Shown one piece after another: positions 2,435 through 60,752 of a DNA stretch of 64,000 bases. The DNA is from Oscillospiraceae bacterium (lineage in GTDB: Bacteria; Bacillota; Clostridia; Oscillospirales; Ruminococcaceae), in NCBI GenBank assembly GCA_031260665.1, contig JAISLD010000022.1:1-64000 (forward strand), written 5' to 3'. Both the position numbers and the translations under genes were made by a program. Positions within the stretch are counted from its first letter, which is position 1. The number at the start of each line of letters is the position of its first letter. The notes beneath the pieces are model-generated. The model made no database searches. It saw only the letters and a program-made list of their open reading frames with translations, and was not told the origin of the DNA.

Positions 2435-2447
2435 ATTTAAGCAAGTT

Positions 2448-2500
2448 ATCCCATTAACTTATCGCCAACCCCGGCAGGGGCTTGCGTGTCCGGCACAGAC
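2448..2500. repeat. degenerate copy of intergenic repeat module C
   Basis: Contains TATCCCATTAACTTAT and GTCCGGCACAGAC, recognisable relatives of module C found in full at 40.5, 42.2, 42.3, 48.4-48.5 and 50.2 kb, here interrupted by a CCCCGGCAGGGG hairpin. It fills the gap between two convergent genes. Confidence 0.6.
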
Positions 2501-4168
2501 TTATTTATCGTCTTGAAGCGCTTCGTATCCTATCTCACCTGTACGAATCTTCACGGCATTCTCGACATTGTAGACAAAGATTTTTCCGTCGCCTATCTGC
2601 CCCGTGTGCAGCGCCGACTTCGCCGCTTTCACCACGGTTTCAACAGGCACCTTGCAGACCACAACGTCCACCTGTATCTTCGGGAGCAGCCGCGCCTTGA
2701 CCTCAACGCCACGATAAAACTCGCTGTTGCCGCTTTGCATACCAAAGCCGTTCACGTTGCTCACGGTCATTCCCGTTATGCCCACCTCGGTGAGCGCGTT
2801 CTTCAACGCCTCAAACCGCTCTGTTCGTGTGATAATGCTGATACGATTCATCTTCACGCCGTCAGCAGGCGCATACGGCGTGTCGTTCACGATTGCCGTC
2901 GTTGCGGACGAGGTTTCAGCCGCGTATGTCACGGGGATAAAGTCAGCGTACGAGCTTTCAAGTCCGTGTTCAGCCGTGTCAAGCCCCTGTATCTCGTCCT
3001 CTCTGCTTGCGCGCAGTCCGATTGTTTTCTTTATGCAGAAGAACGTGAGCGACATCGTGACAGTCACCCAGACCGCTACGGCAAGAAGCCCGAGCGCCTG
3101 AACACCAAGCAGTTTCGCTCCCCCACCGTAGAACAAGCCGCCGTCTGTAGCGAAAAGCCCCACGCAAATTGTGCCGAACAAACCGCAGAAGCAGTGAACA
3201 CCAACCGCACCCACGGGGTCGTCTATCTTCAGCACCTTGTCGACAAACTCGATACCGAGAACGACTATCACGCCCGCAACCAACCCGATAACGCACGCTG
3301 CCCACGGTTCAACGATGTCGCAGCCCGCCGTTATGCCGACAAGCCCGGCAAGCGCGCCGTTCAGCGTCATTGATATATCGGGCTTTTTGTATCTCGCCCA
3401 AGTAAAAAGCATAGCGGCTAATGTGCCTGTTGCGGCGGCAAGGTTCGTCGTGATGAATATGTCGGACGCAAGCAGCACGCTGTCGCCGTCAAACGCCGCG
3501 GTTGACGCACCGTTGAACCCGAACCAGCCAAACCACAAGAGAAACACGCCGAGTGCCCCGAGTGTGAGCGAGTGACCGGGTATCGCGTTCGGTTTGCCTT
3601 TTGTGTATTTGCCGATACGCGGTCCGATTATCGCCGCACCGATTAACGCGGACAATCCGCCGACAAAGTGAACGGCAGTTGACCCCGCGAAGTCGTGGAA
3701 CCCAAGTTCAGCGAGCCAACCGCCGCCCCATATCCAGTGACCGCTGACGGGATAGACGGCAAGCGAGATAATCGCCGAGTAAAGGCAGTACGCGCCGAAC
3801 TTTGTTCGTTCAGCCATTGCCCCCGCAACGATTGTAGCGGCTGTGGCGCAGAACACGGTTTGAAAGATGAGCCACGCAGACGGCGCGACCCCGTCGGGCG
3901 TGATGTACGCACCTGTGCCGAGTTGACCCGTAAAAAGGTCGAAAATCCCGACAAACCCGTTGTTTATGCCGAACATTATGCCAAACCCGACCAACCAGTA
4001 GGATATAGAACCTATCGCGAAGTCAAGCGAGTTCTTCATAATAATGTTGCCGGCATTCTTTGCTCTTGTAAAACCTGTTTCAAGCATACAGAACCCTGCT
4101 TGCATAACAAACACAAGCACCGCGCCGAGAAGCACCCACAAGGTGCTTGTTGAAATGATTTCTTCCAT
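2501..4168 (-). CDS. ammonium transporter fused to a P-II regulatory domain
   Basis: 555 residues starting at MEEIIST; the ORF extends 27 codons further, but AGGAG lies just before this ATG. Residues 1 to about 405 are an Amt/AmtB channel of about 11 membrane helices. The pore's twin histidines are in STAVHFVGG and AVGVHCFCG. Residues about 440-555 are a complete GlnB/GlnK-type P-II domain (MNRISIITRTERFEALKNAL; GQIGDGKIFVY at the nucleotide-binding loop). P-II normally plugs Amt as a separate protein; here it is tethered. At the T-loop tip the usual Tyr51 aligns with Val (YRGVEVKARLLPK), so uridylylation there is not expected. Regulation would be by ATP/ADP and 2-oxoglutarate (family knowledge). 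Confidence 0.93.
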   Translation of the reverse strand: MEEIISTSTLWVLLGAVLVFVMQAGFCMLETGFTRAKNAGNIIMKNSLDFAIGSISYWLVGFGIMFGINNGFVGIFDLFTGQLGTGAYITPDGVAPSAWLIFQTVFCATAATIVAGAMAERTKFGAYCLYSAIISLAVYPVSGHWIWGGGWLAELGFHDFAGSTAVHFVGGLSALIGAAIIGPRIGKYTKGKPNAIPGHSLTLGALGVFLLWFGWFGFNGASTAAFDGDSVLLASDIFITTNLAAATGTLAAMLFTWARYKKPDISMTLNGALAGLVGITAGCDIVEPWAACVIGLVAGVIVVLGIEFVDKVLKIDDPVGAVGVHCFCGLFGTICVGLFATDGGLFYGGGAKLLGVQALGLLAVAVWVTVTMSLTFFCIKKTIGLRASREDEIQGLDTAEHGLESSYADFIPVTYAAETSSATTAIVNDTPYAPADGVKMNRISIITRTERFEALKNALTEVGITGMTVSNVNGFGMQSGNSEFYRGVEVKARLLPKIQVDVVVCKVPVETVVKAAKSALHTGQIGDGKIFVYNVENAVKIRTGEIGYEALQDDK

Positions 4169-25245: not shown

Positions 25246-25280
25246 CAAACGCCGTCCATATCGGACAGGCAATATGATAT

Positions 25281-25318
25281 AGCAAAAGCCTGTTCTCAAA
25301 GGAGAACAGGCTTTTGCT
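25281..25318 (-). terminator. terminator after mfd
   Basis: A perfect 17-bp stem AGCAAAAGCCTGTTCTC with its complement and an AAAG loop. It separates mfd from spoIIIAA, both on the minus strand. Confidence 0.85.
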
Positions 25319-25334
25319 ATAAATAACTGACTTA

Positions 25335-25470
25335 AGCCACAACCTATTGCCCGTCCGGCAGAGACACGCGCCCGCATGTGCCCCGAGGGGTATGGCCTTC
25401 GGTTATGCGGCAACTTCTGTGTATACAAAACTTGTCGCATTAGCTTATTTGCCGCTCGGGCACCGAGTTT
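25335..25470. repeat. intergenic repeat modules C and E (two C copies)
   Basis: ATTGCCCGTCCGGCAGAGAC (module C), then CGCCCGCATGTGCCCCG and GGTATGGCCTTCGGTTAT (module E), then a second C-like piece CATTAGCTTATTTGCCGCTC. It occupies the 3' region of mfd before the terminator. Order C-E is the same as at 50.2 kb. Confidence 0.7.
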
Positions 25471-40411: not shown

Positions 40412-40800
40412 AGTGTTCTCTCCCCACGGGGGGAGAACACTAAAGTAGTTAGTTAATCGGTGATGACTTAATTATAGTAGGCTATATCAGCAAAGTTATC
40501 CCGTTAGCTTATTGCCCGTCCGACACGGACACAGCGGCGTGTGATATAGCCAGTTAAACTCAAAACACTACAGTGTTTTGAGTTTTCGCCGCGAAGCGGC
40601 GGCGCGGCTTTGCCGCGCACTGGCGTATCAGGACGGTTAAAAACGCTCCAGCGGAGCGATAGCCTCATAAAGCGGCTATAAAAACGCTTTATCGTTTTTA
40701 ATTTAACCTACTATACTGCGAAGCGGCGGGGGTTAAACTAAAAGTTTAACCGGTTAAGGAGCATATTGCCTATCGGGCACTGACCCGCTCCCGCAGGAGC
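40412..40800. repeat. largest intergenic repeat mosaic (modules G, C, hairpins, A, B, C-D)
   Basis: In order: CTTAGTGTTCTC...GAGAACACTAAAG hairpin; GGCTATATCA / TGATATAGCC (40480-40489 and 40542-40551) framing module C (CCCGTTAGCTTATTGCCC, GTCCGACACGGAC); ACTCAAAACACT / AGTGTTTTGAGT; GCCGCGAAGCGGC-type hairpins; module A (CTATAAAAACGCTTTATCG, 40676-40715); module B (40731-40751) with GGTTAAGGAG; then TTGCCTATCGGGCACTGAC and CCGCTCCCGCAGGAGCGG. No gene is supported. Confidence 0.8.
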
Positions 40801-40885
40801 GGAAGAACACTAAACGCTTACTTAGATTATATGAGCGCGGGGGCAACCGTGACACCGCAACTTGTTCTAATCAAAAGGCTGTCTA

Positions 40886-40893
40886 CATACAAT
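40886..40893 (+). promoter_or_regulatory. candidate sigma-E-type -10 element before the PdaB-like gene
   Basis: CATACAAT matches the sporulation sigma-E -10 pattern and stands 53 bases before the ATG. A convincing -35 is not visible, so this is tentative. It would fit the sporulation role of PdaB relatives. Confidence 0.3.
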
Positions 40894-40946
40894 CAAGTAC
40901 AAACCGCACAGCTTCTCAGCCATTACAGAAAGGAGTATGTAAACCA

Positions 40947-42152
40947 ATGTTTGTTTACACACTGAACAGGAAACGCGCGTTCCGAATTGGGCTTATCGCT
41001 CTCGCAGGGGTGTCGGCAGTCGCCGTGGGAGTCGCCGCTATTTTCACGGCGATAAACGCGAACGCCGCCGAAAAGAAACTGCCCATCTATTCCGTTGAAC
41101 GCGGGGATAATAAAATCGCTCTCTCATTTGACGTGGCGGGAGGAAATTCAAATACGGACGAATTGATAAAGCTTCTCGGGGACAACGGTGTAAAGGCGAC
41201 GTTCTTTGTGACGGGCGAGTTTGCCGACAAGTATCCCGACGACGTACGGAAGTTATATGACGGCGGACACGAAATAGCGAATCATTCTGACGCACACCAG
41301 CACCTCAAGGGAATGAACCTCAACGCGTTCATTGCCGACACCAAGAACGCGGAAACGAAACTCCGCTTGATTACGGGGCAAAAGCCCGCGCTTTATCGTG
41401 CGCCTTATGGCGAGTTTGACGAGAATATCCTCACGACACTTGAGGGAATGGGCTATCTCCCCATTCAGTATTCCGTTGACAGCACCGACGCGAAAGAAAC
41501 AAAGGCTTCTGCAATCGTAAAGAAAGTGCTTGACAAAGCAACCAGCGGGAGCATACTCCTGTTCCACAACGACCTTGCCAACACAGCGGAAGCGCTCCCC
41601 GACATCATCAATCAGCTGAAGAAGAAAGGCTATTCGTTTGTGACGGTGGGCGACCTTGTATACAGCACCGACTATCACGTGGACAGCAGCGGCAAGCAGA
41701 TATACGATGTGACTGTCGGCGGCAGTGAACCGACGTTCAGTGCGAACCGTCAAGTGAACGGCGCGTTTGCGGCGGTGAGAGCAAACCTCTCTGACGGAGA
41801 GATTGCGTCAATCAGAAACGGCATAACAGGCGATGTTGCGGTGAAACTCTCGAAAGTGTTGAGTAGCGAGCAGATTGCCGCACTGAAGGGACTTTCAGCT
41901 AAAGAATACACCGAGGCGTGGAGCGCGTTGGCTTCAACAGCAGAGGGCGTGCTGCAAGTGGACGCCGACGTGGAAACCGAACGTGAAATCGACGACGACG
42001 GCGTGGTTGACGAAGAGGACGACGTTGACGTGCCCGAGATACCCGGCAACTACGCTGAGTTTGAGGGCGTGGACATAGAGGACGACGGCAACGACCTTGA
42101 CAATCTCCCTGAAGCAGGCAGAACAAACACGGAAATCTTCGGGAATAAGTAA
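40947..42152 (+). CDS. PdaB-like polysaccharide deacetylase with acidic C-terminal extension
   Basis: 401 residues. AAAGGAG precedes the ATG. A signal or anchor helix (about 14-40) is followed by a NodB domain (about 50-235): SFDVAGG at motif 1, where most CE4 enzymes have FDDG, then NHSDAH and RAPYGEFDE. PdaB, a spore cortex-related protein, also lacks the DD pair at motif 1, so this resembles PdaB more than PdaA. About 235-340 is a helical unknown region, and the tail (about 345-401) is Asp/Glu-rich. Activity is uncertain. Confidence 0.82.
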   Translation: MFVYTLNRKRAFRIGLIALAGVSAVAVGVAAIFTAINANAAEKKLPIYSVERGDNKIALSFDVAGGNSNTDELIKLLGDNGVKATFFVTGEFADKYPDDVRKLYDGGHEIANHSDAHQHLKGMNLNAFIADTKNAETKLRLITGQKPALYRAPYGEFDENILTTLEGMGYLPIQYSVDSTDAKETKASAIVKKVLDKATSGSILLFHNDLANTAEALPDIINQLKKKGYSFVTVGDLVYSTDYHVDSSGKQIYDVTVGGSEPTFSANRQVNGAFAAVRANLSDGEIASIRNGITGDVAVKLSKVLSSEQIAALKGLSAKEYTEAWSALASTAEGVLQVDADVETEREIDDDGVVDEEDDVDVPEIPGNYAEFEGVDIEDDGNDLDNLPEAGRTNTEIFGNK

Positions 42153-42163
42153 ACTATAGACAT

Positions 42164-42203
42164 AACAAACACCCTCTCCCGTTTGGGAGGGGGTGTTTGT
42201 TGT
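42164..42203 (+). terminator. terminator after the PdaB-like gene
   Basis: A 17-bp stem AACAAACACCCTCTCCC / GGGAGGGGGTGTTTGTT (one wobble) with a GTTT loop, 11 bases after the stop codon. It is also the first hairpin of the tandem repeat that follows. Confidence 0.85.
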
Positions 42204-42352
42204 AAGCATTATATCAACGTATCCCGTTGGCTTATTGCCTGTCGGGCACCGACCCTCTCTCATCGGGAGGGGGGTTCGTTGTAAAAATTATATCAACGTA
42301 TTCCGTTAGCTTATTGCCTGTCGGGCACCGACCTCTCCCATTGGGAGAGGTT
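42172..42352. repeat. about 80-bp tandem repeat of terminator hairpin plus module C
   Basis: Two full units and one partial, with periods of about 81 and 78 bases. Each begins with a CTCTCCC/GGGAGAG-type hairpin, continues with TTATATCAACGTATCCCGTT and ends with module C (AGCTTATTGCCTGTCGGGCA, CCGAC). Hairpin sequences differ between units while pairing is kept. Confidence 0.85.
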
Positions 42353-42367
42353 GTTTGCTTATATGTT

Positions 42368-42805
42368 CTATATCACGTAGTTGTCGGTGCCGATGTTCTG
42401 CGACTGAAGTATCAAGTCCTCAAGGGTCACACCGTCAATGTAATCGGCAATCGTTTTGTCAAGTCCTTGCCAAAAGGGCAGGGTTTGGCAATAAGCGGCA
42501 CGGTCGCAACCGCCGAGGTTGTTATCGAGACAGGCTATCGGCGACATACTGCCTTCTGCTGCGCGAAGAATCTCACCCACGGTGTATTCTCCCGTTCTGC
42601 GAGCCAAACGATAGCCGCCGCTGCTGCCCCGCGTGCTTTGAATCAGCCCGTCTTTGACGAGAAGCGGCACTATCTGTTCAAGATACTTGACGCTTATGGC
42701 TTGCCTTGCCGAGATTTCTTTGAGGCTGATATGTTCGCCGCTGGAAAACTGTGCTAAGTCGAGCATTAGCCGCAAGGCATAACGCCCCTTTGTTGATACT
42801 TTCAT
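42368..42805 (-). CDS. Rrf2-family transcriptional regulator with three clustered cysteines
   Basis: 145 residues. An N-terminal winged helix (MKVSTKGRYALRLMLDLAQF; YLEQIVPLLVKDGLIQSTRG; SSGGYRLAR) is followed by ACLDNNLGGCDRAAYC, a C-x7-C-x5-C motif at the place of the IscR cluster ligands. It could bind an iron-sulfur cluster and act as a redox or Fe-S sensor, unlike CymR, which lacks these. No isc/suf or cys genes are adjacent to suggest targets. It follows the small membrane protein gene by 11 bases. Confidence 0.88.
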   Translation of the reverse strand: MKVSTKGRYALRLMLDLAQFSSGEHISLKEISARQAISVKYLEQIVPLLVKDGLIQSTRGSSGGYRLARRTGEYTVGEILRAAEGSMSPIACLDNNLGGCDRAAYCQTLPFWQGLDKTIADYIDGVTLEDLILQSQNIGTDNYVI

Positions 42806-48409: not shown

Positions 48410-48449
48410 AACAACAGCCTGTTTGCAAGAACTGGCTGTTGTTTATTGT
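48410..48449 (+). terminator. terminator after ricT
   Basis: AACAACAGCC pairs with GGCTGTTGTT around a 14-base loop, followed by TATTGT, seven bases after the ricT stop. Its downstream arm is repeated at 48524-48540. Confidence 0.75.
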
Positions 48450-48540
48450 CAAGTTTGCCCATTAGCTTATTGCCCGTCCGGCACGGACTTGCCCGTTAGC
48501 TTATTGCCCGTCCGGCACGGACTTGGCTGTTGTTTATTGT
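48433..48540. repeat. two tandem module C copies flanked by a 17-bp direct repeat
   Basis: TGGCTGTTGTTTATTGT occurs at 48433-48449 and 48524-48540. Between them stand two head-to-tail copies of module C, each with TTAGCTTATTGCCCGTCCGG and CACGGACTTG. The direct repeat is the 3' arm of the ricT terminator. Confidence 0.9.
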
Positions 48541-50108: not shown

Positions 50109-50270
50109 GCCGGTTAAACTAAAAGTTTCACCGGTTAAGGGGTATAACCGGCAACGTATCCCATCAGTCATATTGCCCGTCCGGCACAGACTCGCTCCTG
50201 CGGGAGCGGCAAGGGCGTTGAGTCATTCCGGTCGCCCGCCTGCGCCCCGAGGGGTATGACCTTCGGTTAT
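50109..50270. repeat. complete intergenic composite: modules B, C, D, E
   Basis: Module B with one mismatch (CGGTTAAACTAAAAGTTTCA, 50111-50130), GGTTAAGGGGTATAACCGG, module C (ATATTGCCCGTCCGGCACAG), module D (CGCTCCTGCGGGAGCGGCA) and module E (GGTCGCCCGCCTGCGCCCCG, GGTATGACCTTCGGTTAT). It lies upstream of the ECF sigma gene and downstream of nothing on the plus strand. Bases 50271-50411 hold nothing I recognise. Confidence 0.85.
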
Positions 50271-53906: not shown

Positions 53907-53993
53907 CGCACACCTTGGTCGGCGCCGAACCGGCAATATAGTTAATGCGATATGTTATTTGGCTTGCAATGTTAACAACTTGGGTGCATATGC

Positions 53994-54066
53994 CGCTCCT
54001 GCGGAGCGGTAGCCGCTGAAAGCGGCTATAAAAACGCTTTAGCGTTTTTAATTTAACCTACTATAA
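53994..54066. repeat. module A with its upstream hairpins
   Basis: GCTCCTGCGGAGCGGTAGCC, GCTGAAAGCGGC, then TATAAAAACGCTTTAGCG and TTTTTAATTTAACCTACTAT. It matches 40645-40715 over about 70 bases with few differences. Confidence 0.85.
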
Positions 54067-54117
54067 CACGCAGAATGATTAGTTAGCAAACGTATTGTCC
54101 ACACCTGCAAGGGGTCG

Positions 54118-54146
54118 TTGACAATGATTGTGGCTTGTGGTATAAT
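54118..54146 (+). promoter_or_regulatory. sigma-A-type promoter of the M50-scpA-scpB operon
   Basis: TTGACA (54118-54123) and TATAAT (54141-54146) with a 17-base spacer. The 150-base leader that follows is almost entirely repeat modules B and A. Confidence 0.85.
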
Positions 54147-54163
54147 GCCAAGTGATATATATT

Positions 54164-54282
54164 CCTTAACTGGTTAAACTTTCAGTTTAACTCCGCCGCT
54201 TCGCGGCAATTGGTGGCTACGCCGCCAAGCGCTAAAAGCGACTGCAAAAACGCTTTAGCGTTTTTAATTTAGCCTACTATAA
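54164..54282. repeat. repeat modules inside the 5' leader: inverted B, GC hairpins, A
   Basis: CCTTAACTGGTTAAACTTTC with AGTTTAAC (inverted module B), CCGCCGCTTCGCGGC, GGCTACGCCGCC, GCGCTAAAAGCG, and module A (GCAAAAACGCTTTAGCGTTT, TTAATTTAGCCTACTATA). All lie between the promoter at 54118 and the M50 ATG at 54306. Confidence 0.85.
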
Positions 54283-54305
54283 TATCTTTTTGGAGCAAAA
54301 CGTAG

Positions 54306-55007: not shown

Positions 55008-55735
55008 TGACAGACTTTAACTACAAAAGCCCCGTCTATGAGGGACCGCTTGACCTTATGCTCGCGTTGGTGGAGAAGCAAAAGCTTGATATCCGCGACA
55101 TTGAGATATCGATACTGCTTGAGCAGTTTCTTCTCTATCTTGAGGAGATGCGCGCCCGTGATATCGAGTTGGCAGGCGAGTTCATCGCGATGGCGGCGCA
55201 CCTCATCTATATCAAAACCGCTGTTCTGCTGCCGAAGCACGAAGTTGAAGAACTAAAAAAAGAATTGTCGGGTGCGCTGATTGAATACGCTTTGCTTAAA
55301 GAAGCGGCGACGGCACTCGCGAAGCTCTTCAACGGAGGCGCGTACTTCACGCGCAAACCCGCGGAACTCGAGGGGGCGGCGGAGTATCGGTTGCCACATC
55401 AATCAAGCGAACTCGTAAGTGCGGCGATTGAGGCGGTGAAGTCCGGTGTGAAGCCCCCCGAGGTGCAAACAGCCCTTGAAATCGTGCCACACAAAGAATA
55501 CGCCAGCATTTACGCGAAGTTTATATACGTTATGCGGCGGCTGACGAAGCACAAGGTTTATCCGATTCGCGAGCTGTATTTTCAGCAGAGCCGAAGCGAG
55601 CAAGCGGCGGTGTTCATCGTGCTTCTCGAATTGGCAAGGCGTGGCGTGATAAACTTTGTCGATAACGACAGGTTCATCGAGTTGACAAGAAGCGACGGCG
55701 TGAAGGTCGATGAAGTTCCCGTGGGTGCAATGTGA
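55007..55735 (+). CDS. scpA: segregation and condensation protein A
   Basis: 242 residues. N-terminal SPVYEGPLDLMLALVEKQKLDI binds the SMC head-proximal neck, the C-terminal winged helix (VIVLLELARRGVINFVDND) binds the SMC cap. It is the kleisin of the Smc-ScpAB complex that organises chromosomes. Its stop overlaps the scpB start by four bases. Confidence 0.94.
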   Translation: MTDFNYKSPVYEGPLDLMLALVEKQKLDIRDIEISILLEQFLLYLEEMRARDIELAGEFIAMAAHLIYIKTAVLLPKHEVEELKKELSGALIEYALLKEAATALAKLFNGGAYFTRKPAELEGAAEYRLPHQSSELVSAAIEAVKSGVKPPEVQTALEIVPHKEYASIYAKFIYVMRRLTKHKVYPIRELYFQQSRSEQAAVFIVLLELARRGVINFVDNDRFIELTRSDGVKVDEVPVGAM

Positions 55736-56496
55736 TGAGAACAAAACAAACTAAACTCCCGAAGATAACAGCAGACGTGAGCGAGAGAATGGCGGCGGTT
55801 GAAGCCGTTTTGTTCGCTAATGGTGAGCCTGTGCCGCTGACACGGCTTGCCGCCTCGCTTCTTTGCGGTGCCGACGAAGCGCGTGAAGCGGTGGCGCAAC
55901 TTGAACGCCGCTATGACATATCGGGCGGTGGAATCTGCCTGCTTCGGCTTGGCAACTCGTTTCAGCTGGCGACTCGCCCCGAACACGCGGACGAAGTGCG
56001 CCGCGCGCTCGAAACGCGCAAGCAACAGCCGTTGTCACAAGCGGCGATTGAAGTGCTGTCGCTTATTGCGTATAATCAACCTGTGACCAAGGCGTTCATT
56101 GAAACGGTGCGCGGTGTTGACTCGGGCAGCGTGGTCAACACGTTAGCGGAACGCGGTTTGGTGGAGGAGGCGGGTCGGCTTGACTTGCCGGGCAGACCTG
56201 TCGCGTTTCGTACCACCGAAACTTTTCTTCGTTGCTTCGGGTTAGAGTCAATTGCCGATTTGCCGCCGCTTCCCGGCACTCCGCAACAAAAAACCTTTGA
56301 TGAAATAGAAGAAGATTATACAGATGATGTAATAAACGAAGAATTATATACAGAAAGTATAAAAGATGAAGAAGTTGTGGAAAATAGAGACGAAGATTTT
56401 TATACAAATGCTGCGACAAATGAAGAAGTTGCGGAAGATAATTATACAGAAAGTGTAATCAGCGAAGATATATCCGAACAGGAATATATCGAATGA
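55732..56496 (+). CDS. scpB: segregation and condensation protein B with an acidic Tyr-rich tail
   Basis: 254 residues. Two winged-helix domains (about 15-180; VEAVLFANGEPVPLTRLA, QAAIEVLSLIAYNQPVTKAF) are standard for ScpB. Residues about 190-254 are an unusual acidic tail of loosely repeated blocks (DYTDDVINEELYTES, DNYTESVISEDIS). The tail DNA is distinctly AT-rich compared with the rest of the gene. ScpB dimers bridge the ScpA kleisin. The next gene overlaps by four bases. Confidence 0.94.
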   Translation: MMRTKQTKLPKITADVSERMAAVEAVLFANGEPVPLTRLAASLLCGADEAREAVAQLERRYDISGGGICLLRLGNSFQLATRPEHADEVRRALETRKQQPLSQAAIEVLSLIAYNQPVTKAFIETVRGVDSGSVVNTLAERGLVEEAGRLDLPGRPVAFRTTETFLRCFGLESIADLPPLPGTPQQKTFDEIEEDYTDDVINEELYTESIKDEEVVENRDEDFYTNAATNEEVAEDNYTESVISEDISEQEYIE

Positions 56497-60721: not shown

Positions 60722-60752
60722 TTCCGCTACCGCGGTAGCGGCAAGGGCTTGG
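60722..60752. repeat. module D variant
   Basis: CGCTACCGCGGTAGCGGCAA then GGGCTTGG, related to CGCTCCTGCGGGAGCGGCAA at 50.2 kb. Differences in one arm are matched in the other, keeping the hairpin. Confidence 0.6.

Follow-up and report, generated by a model that had tools for sequence, protein, structure and literature searches.

Module C, a short repeat dispersed through the intergenic DNA of this Oscillospiraceae genome, combines a conserved 5' foot with a hairpin whose two arms change together far more often than independent substitution predicts. We consider it probable that module C is a species-restricted, REPIN-like non-autonomous hairpin repeat that is selected as folded single-stranded DNA. 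The window referred to below is the whole 64,000-nucleotide stretch of DNA that was analyzed.

A degenerate core pattern (at most two mismatches) gave 98 matches in the genome compared with 0 for the reversed control, and a covariance model derived from 75 module C copies gave 154 matches, corresponding to about 150 copies, in 1.46 Mb (a draft of 48 contigs, 95.6% complete). The same model gave no convincing match in 70 congeneric genomes, the two nearest being at E values of about 0.009, and IMG/VR viral contigs held no match. An exact scan of GTDB returned a single isolated match, in Novosphingobium, and one match with one mismatch was found in another family of the same order; each stood alone and was taken as chance. 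As far as can be seen, with one genome of the species compared, the family is confined to this genome.

The conserved part of the unit is the 5' foot GCAACGTATCSCRTTARCTTATTGCC, which is followed by a short hairpin with a nearly free stem sequence and a loop that mostly contains GCA. Stems in copies collected without reference to the stem included GCCCG/CGGGC, CCCCG/CGGGG, CTCGG/CCGAG, ACCCG/CGGGT, and GTTCG/CGAAC, together with GTCTG/CAGAC, CCGAT/GTCGG, TCAAC/GTTGG, and GGCCCC-CGCAA-GGGGCC. The initial annotation had described a switch between two stems, GTCCG/CGGAC and GTCGG/CCGAC; both are real, but the number of fully paired stem types is at least nine. At at least eight loci the unit takes a fuller form of approximately 70 bp, a double hairpin with GGCAATAAG/CTTATTGCC inverted repeats, in which two halves lie head to head and the 5' ends of the opposite-strand matches touch or almost touch. 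One such unit reads through as CTCGGTGCCCGAG-AGGCAATAAGATAACCGGCGACGTATCCTATCAACTCTATTGCC-CGTTCGGCACAGAC, with the hairpins outside GGCAATAAG/CTTATTGCC; on the left the hairpin is usually CTCGG/CCGAG-like and on the right GTYSG-like. Right halves starting at GCAACG make up most of the copies, and single halves far outnumber double units. The copies in the window and the double-hairpin loci are listed in Table 1.

Table 1. Positions of module C copies, neighboring hairpins, and double-hairpin loci (positions are those of the window unless a contig is given).
Feature	Position	Strand	Description
Module C copy	2441..2480	+	Stem CCCC-GGCA-GGGG; terminator precedes
Weak module C copy	25254..25293	-	GTCCGATATGGAC
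Module C copy	25326..25365	+	Stem degraded, GTCCG/GAGAC
Module C copy	25427..25467	+	Stem CTCGG-GCA-CCGAG
Module C copy	40491..40530	+	Stem GTCCG/CGGAC, loop ACA (GTCCG-ACA-CGGAC within 40510-40530)
Mosaic module C copy	40741..40784	+	Hairpin half fused to another module; stem ATCGG/CTGAC; then module D hairpin; 21.8 bits
Terminator-like hairpin	42164..42202	+	AACAAACACCCTCTCCC-GTTT-GGGAGGGGGTGTTTGTT; 3' of deacetylase gene, just 5' of first 42-kb module C copy; from sequence and terminator scan
Module C copy	42214..42253	+	5' foot TCAACGTATCCCGTTGGCTTATTGCC, T, and hairpin GTCGG-GCA-CCGAC at 42241-42253; covariance-model match 53.4 bits
Terminator-like hairpin	42252..42277	+	Between the two 42-kb module C copies
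Module C copy	42293..42332	+	5' foot and hairpin GTCGG-GCA-CCGAC at 42320-42332; 54.9 bits
Module C copy	48449..48488	+	GTCCG-GCA-CGGAC ends 48468-48488; terminator-like hairpin directly before
Partial tandem module C copy	48489..48522	+	GTCCG-GCA-CGGAC ends 48502-48522
Module C copy	50151..50191	+	GTCCG-GCA-CAGAC (50171-50191); single C.A mismatch
Module C copy	53918..53958	-	Arms GTTCG/CCGAC, loop GCG
Module D hairpin	60724..60741	.	CCGCTACC-GC-GGTAGCGG; one base pair added relative to CCGCTCC..GGAGCGG
Double-hairpin locus	C2:3371-3411(-) with 3402-3441(+)
Double-hairpin locus	C30:47493-/47517+
Double-hairpin locus	C30:77489-/77518+
Double-hairpin locus	C34:9346-/9376+
Double-hairpin locus	C34:12323-/12369+
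Double-hairpin locus	C41:61287-/61319+
Double-hairpin locus	C44:8622-/8652+
Double-hairpin locus	C48:25296-/25346+

The 42-kb locus is a tandem composite of terminator and module C with a 79-bp period, flanked on its 5' side by a PdaB-like polysaccharide deacetylase gene (40947-42152; under the curated cut-off) and on its 3' side by an Rrf2-family regulator gene on the minus strand (42368-42805); a relative lies at G000:C41:11480-11611. The paired C:G to G:C change in both arms that had been noted earlier is seen between the GTCCG/CGGAC and GTCGG/CCGAC stems, the latter carried at 42233-42253 and 42312-42332. The earlier readings of individual hairpins were accurate for both 42-kb copies and at 48.5 kb, but the loop at 40.5 kb is ACA rather than GCA, and at 50.2 kb the GTCCG 5' arm faces a CAGAC 3' arm, so that the change there is one-sided.

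Because a search based on the stem could have biased the covariation result, we collected copies by two rules that ignore it, one requiring TATTGCC and GCA separated by six positions and the other using the 5' half alone. In the 75-copy alignment, 88.0% of the stem cells were paired in comparison to 70.8 ± 1.3% after shuffling, and 57 double changes were counted compared with 17.0 ± 3.1 (reached in 0 of 500 shuffles). One-sided states were frequent as well (14 wobble and 45 unpaired cells), and the excess of paired changes therefore holds over independence and not over the absolute number of single changes. When the stem partner was slid along the alignment, pairing fell to 18-41%. The initial annotation had proposed a statistical test of covariation on the genome copies, and in that test paired substitutions were far above expectation even under a tree-aware null, in which the same number of substitutions was redistributed on a tree based either on the full alignment or on its non-stem columns: 0 of 1000 replicates reached the observed summed G, paired cells, or double changes, the last amounting to 11-24 under these nulls, with a tree that rests on 40 columns and local duplications accounted for only in part. 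Of the 39 copies retrieved with the 5' half only, 29 scored 4 or more for a hairpin immediately following the foot; in 300 shuffles the corresponding number averaged 5.4 and never exceeded 12. This score was still reached by 12 of the 15 copies with a 5' arm that was neither GTC nor GTT. The top three column pairs of the whole alignment were stem pairs 4, 2, and 5, each with modest single-pair support (E 0.02-0.33, corrected for all 780 pairs). Covariation was clear in four of the five stem pairs; the middle pair varies mainly by T.G wobble. An alternative hairpin, TGCC/GGCA, was rejected, as its pairing was high but its covariation was absent, equal to that of shuffles.

Two explanations of these paired changes dispense with selection on a fold. 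If copying had started from only two or a few founders, the GTCCG and GTCGG subfamilies, the apparent covariation would reflect shared ancestry, and these are the two commonest stems (GTCCG/CGGAC and GTCGG/CCGAC, 11 and 13 copies, sets A and B), with counts inflated by local tandem copies. When each of the 41 distinct arm pairs was counted once, however, 148 of 205 positions were still paired versus 105 ± 5.6 after shuffling (0 of 5000), and this count and the tree-aware null refute shared ancestry as the full explanation; we regard it as very improbable. Alternatively, polymerase template switching between the arms might perfect the short inverted repeat, with both arms changing in the absence of any function. 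Such switching is known to homogenize short inverted-repeat arms (PMC8604942), same-branch double changes exceeded expectation by parsimony (12 versus 5.3, or 35 versus 13.5), a result that selection could give equally, and tandem hairpin duplications occur at C36, C48, and C5. The loop was nonetheless never inverted above chance, with GCA found 63 times after TATTGCC and six positions and the inverted TGC 6 times (control 7, the chance level), an argument qualified by the finding that template-switch inversions in yeast were seen only for arms longer than 9 bp (PMC8604942). Conservation of the loop and foot alongside a free stem is not predicted by a purely mutational process, and the unpaired state persists at the fourth stem pair in 22 of 75 copies. 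We judge template switching an improbable account of the whole, but correction of short inverted repeats by this route could account for some of the paired changes and imitate some of the covariation signal. The initial interpretation of these changes as a folded structure under selection is supported by the covariation.

That interpretation had left the choice between RNA and DNA open, and the placement of the copies bears on it. Judged by simple gene predictions, 140 of the 150 copies lie between genes. Relative to codirectional neighbors, 38 are sense and 24 antisense, with 29 more in convergent and 20 in divergent regions; with respect to genes, neither strand is clearly preferred. A T-tailed terminator-like hairpin located up to 70 bases upstream is aimed at the 5' end of 41 of 143 copies, often 0-5 bases away, whereas 13 have such a hairpin aimed at the 3' end; the background rate in random stretches of the window was 12%. 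Some of the terminator-adjacent copies are local duplications, and these counts are not independent. A cis-acting RNA element, with the hairpin acting in transcripts as a 3'-end stabilizer, a processing site, or part of a terminator, would explain the covariation by RNA folding, and it accords with a short, stable, intergenic, covarying hairpin, the slight excess of sense orientation, the many copies near terminators, and the partly similar action thought to apply to REPs of other bacteria (PMC3733652). All orientations nevertheless occur, the antisense copies being antisense to both neighbors, and many copies lie behind a terminator T tail, beyond the expected end of upstream transcription. 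Among one-sided stem states, G.T and A.C were about equally frequent (18 each); RNA of this strand should favor G.T, so this equality and the placement favor selection on DNA. The T run of an intrinsic terminator is absent after the hairpin in the listed copies, which continue with mixed sequences (CCGCTCC, TTGCC, CGGGAC, and others), and Rfam 15 gave no match to module C between 40.0 and 62.7 kb, the two sub-threshold hits elsewhere in that stretch being chance. RNA function alone would also leave some 150 species-restricted copies unexplained. We therefore think an RNA element unlikely, and the data favor structure at the DNA level.

Compared with known systems, module C behaves like a REP or REPIN. 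REPINs are likewise short extragenic repeats with inverted halves around a spacer, they form hairpins, and their doublets are similar in size to the module C double unit (PMC3116915); they keep their hairpin capacity via compensatory changes (PMC3116915). They differ in that their ends are conserved and their spacer covaries (PMC3116915), whereas module C shows covariation in its terminal hairpin stems and conservation in the inner foot, and in that module C consists mostly of single halves, with eight head-to-head doublets found, in a genome that by a PF01797 search has no RAYT/Y1 transposase. TnpAREP recognizes REPs through the hairpin and a tag (PMC8266576). The GTAG and CGTC REPs are also intergenic palindromes (20-40 bp) of high copy number, some families being limited to a single species, and several stem variants among them are recorded as complementary changes (PMC3733652); module C shares with the GTAG class the short palindrome, the high copy number, and the extragenic position. 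It has no conserved GTAG, however, and carries TATTGCC and one variable base before the hairpin in the 75-copy alignment. CGTC REPs have an unpaired terminal CGTC (or TGTC/CCTC) tag and an 8-9 bp stem, in contrast to the 5-bp stem of module C, in which many copies contain YGTC but the GTC is mostly base-paired with GAC and gives way, jointly with it, to GCC, CCC, or CTC. Module C thus lacks hallmarks of either tagged REP class, with no GTAG, no unpaired CGTC with a long stem, and no RAYT found; CGTC families likewise have no dedicated or known transposase (PMC3733652), and the text of that study makes no mention of Firmicutes or Clostridia. Mitochondrial double-hairpin elements of Allomyces and sponges are similar in being dispersed single or double hairpins that differ between close relatives, show complementary stem substitutions between types, and have been proposed to be mobile (PMC2800124), but they belong to organelle genomes, are unrelated in sequence, and in sponges vary in the loop and conserve the stem (PMC2800124), the opposite of module C.

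The mechanism that we propose for a REPIN-like element is as follows. Module C would fold when a strand becomes single, for example at a replication fork. Its hairpin shape, GCA loop, and foot would then be recognized by a nuclease or recombinase (HUH type or other), and the same factor would copy or transfer the element to intergenic positions, often immediately downstream of a terminator. Spread would cease for copies that had lost their pairing, and paired changes would accumulate as a result. We infer movement because of the copy number and species restriction; the single-stranded intermediate and the mobilizing enzyme are likewise postulated. The preponderance of single halves counts against the REPIN-like reading, as does the lack, in a weak test, of a detectable strand bias relative to GC skew (27 to 22); such a bias might arise if the element used single-stranded DNA of the lagging strand. 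The PF01797 search detected Y1 transposases in 5 control genomes and in 20 of the 71 genomes searched in the genus but none in this genome, in which a gene could have been missed given its completeness. Comparison of filled and empty sites within the genome gave no clean case, only tandem neighbors and one ambiguous pair (C41:11490 versus window position 42155), which can equally be a deletion of the terminator hairpin between AAAC repeats. A more specific version, which we hold only tentatively, places the family outside the GTAG and CGTC classes, with an enzyme new to REPs that would read the fold, the GCA loop, and the CTTATTGCC foot but not the stem sequence, and would place copies with the 5' end facing a terminator T tail. 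In either version, the natural hairpin variants of this one genome, with their nearly free stem and largely fixed loop and foot, resemble a ready-made selection experiment that reveals which features a mobilizing or binding factor must read, and a genome devoid of the usual REP transposase offers a test case for REP-like spread in the absence of RAYTs, a question shared with CGTC REPs.

The one reverse transcriptase detected in the genome (365 aa; L156, around G000:C30:15060) is encoded 3' of a gene for a 298-aa protein whose C-terminus looks variable, and the locus resembles a prophage diversity-generating retroelement. As a mobilizer of module C this enzyme was set aside, as it lies beside a phage-like gene in a prophage-like context and is probably unrelated.

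Other repeats were noted in passing. Tandem hairpin duplications are present at three sites: a perfect 24-bp tandem array of CGTTATTGCCTGTCGGGCACCGAC occupies G000:C36:1-118 and C48:37875-37985 (L017, L073), and since it runs off two contig ends it probably interrupted the assembly and extends further than is visible; three tandem 19-bp hairpin units, TTGCCTGTYCGGCACGGAC, lie at G000:C5:15624-15682 (L003), GTCCG being found in the first unit and GTTCG in the other two. Module D, which consists of CCGCTCC-TGC-GGAGCGG with CAAGGGC or AATCTC, occurs at many loci, often directly after module C. The variant earlier reported at 60.7 kb was confirmed and is read as given in Table 1; the listed stem variants show paired changes (CCGCTTC/GAAGCGG, CCGCTACC/GGTAGCGG, and CCGCCTTT/GGAGGCGG). 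Larger mosaic intergenic repeats with the end AATTTAACCTACTATA and the modules GTTAAACT..AGTTTAAC and CGCTTTAGCG are located at window positions 40430-40900 and 53990-54290; one copy contains module C, and a near-identical copy lies at G000:C31:9209. Finally, four to five imperfect repeats of approximately 40 bp, GAAGAA..ATTATACAGA, are found in coding sequence at window positions 56308-56473, inside the open reading frame at 55732-56496.
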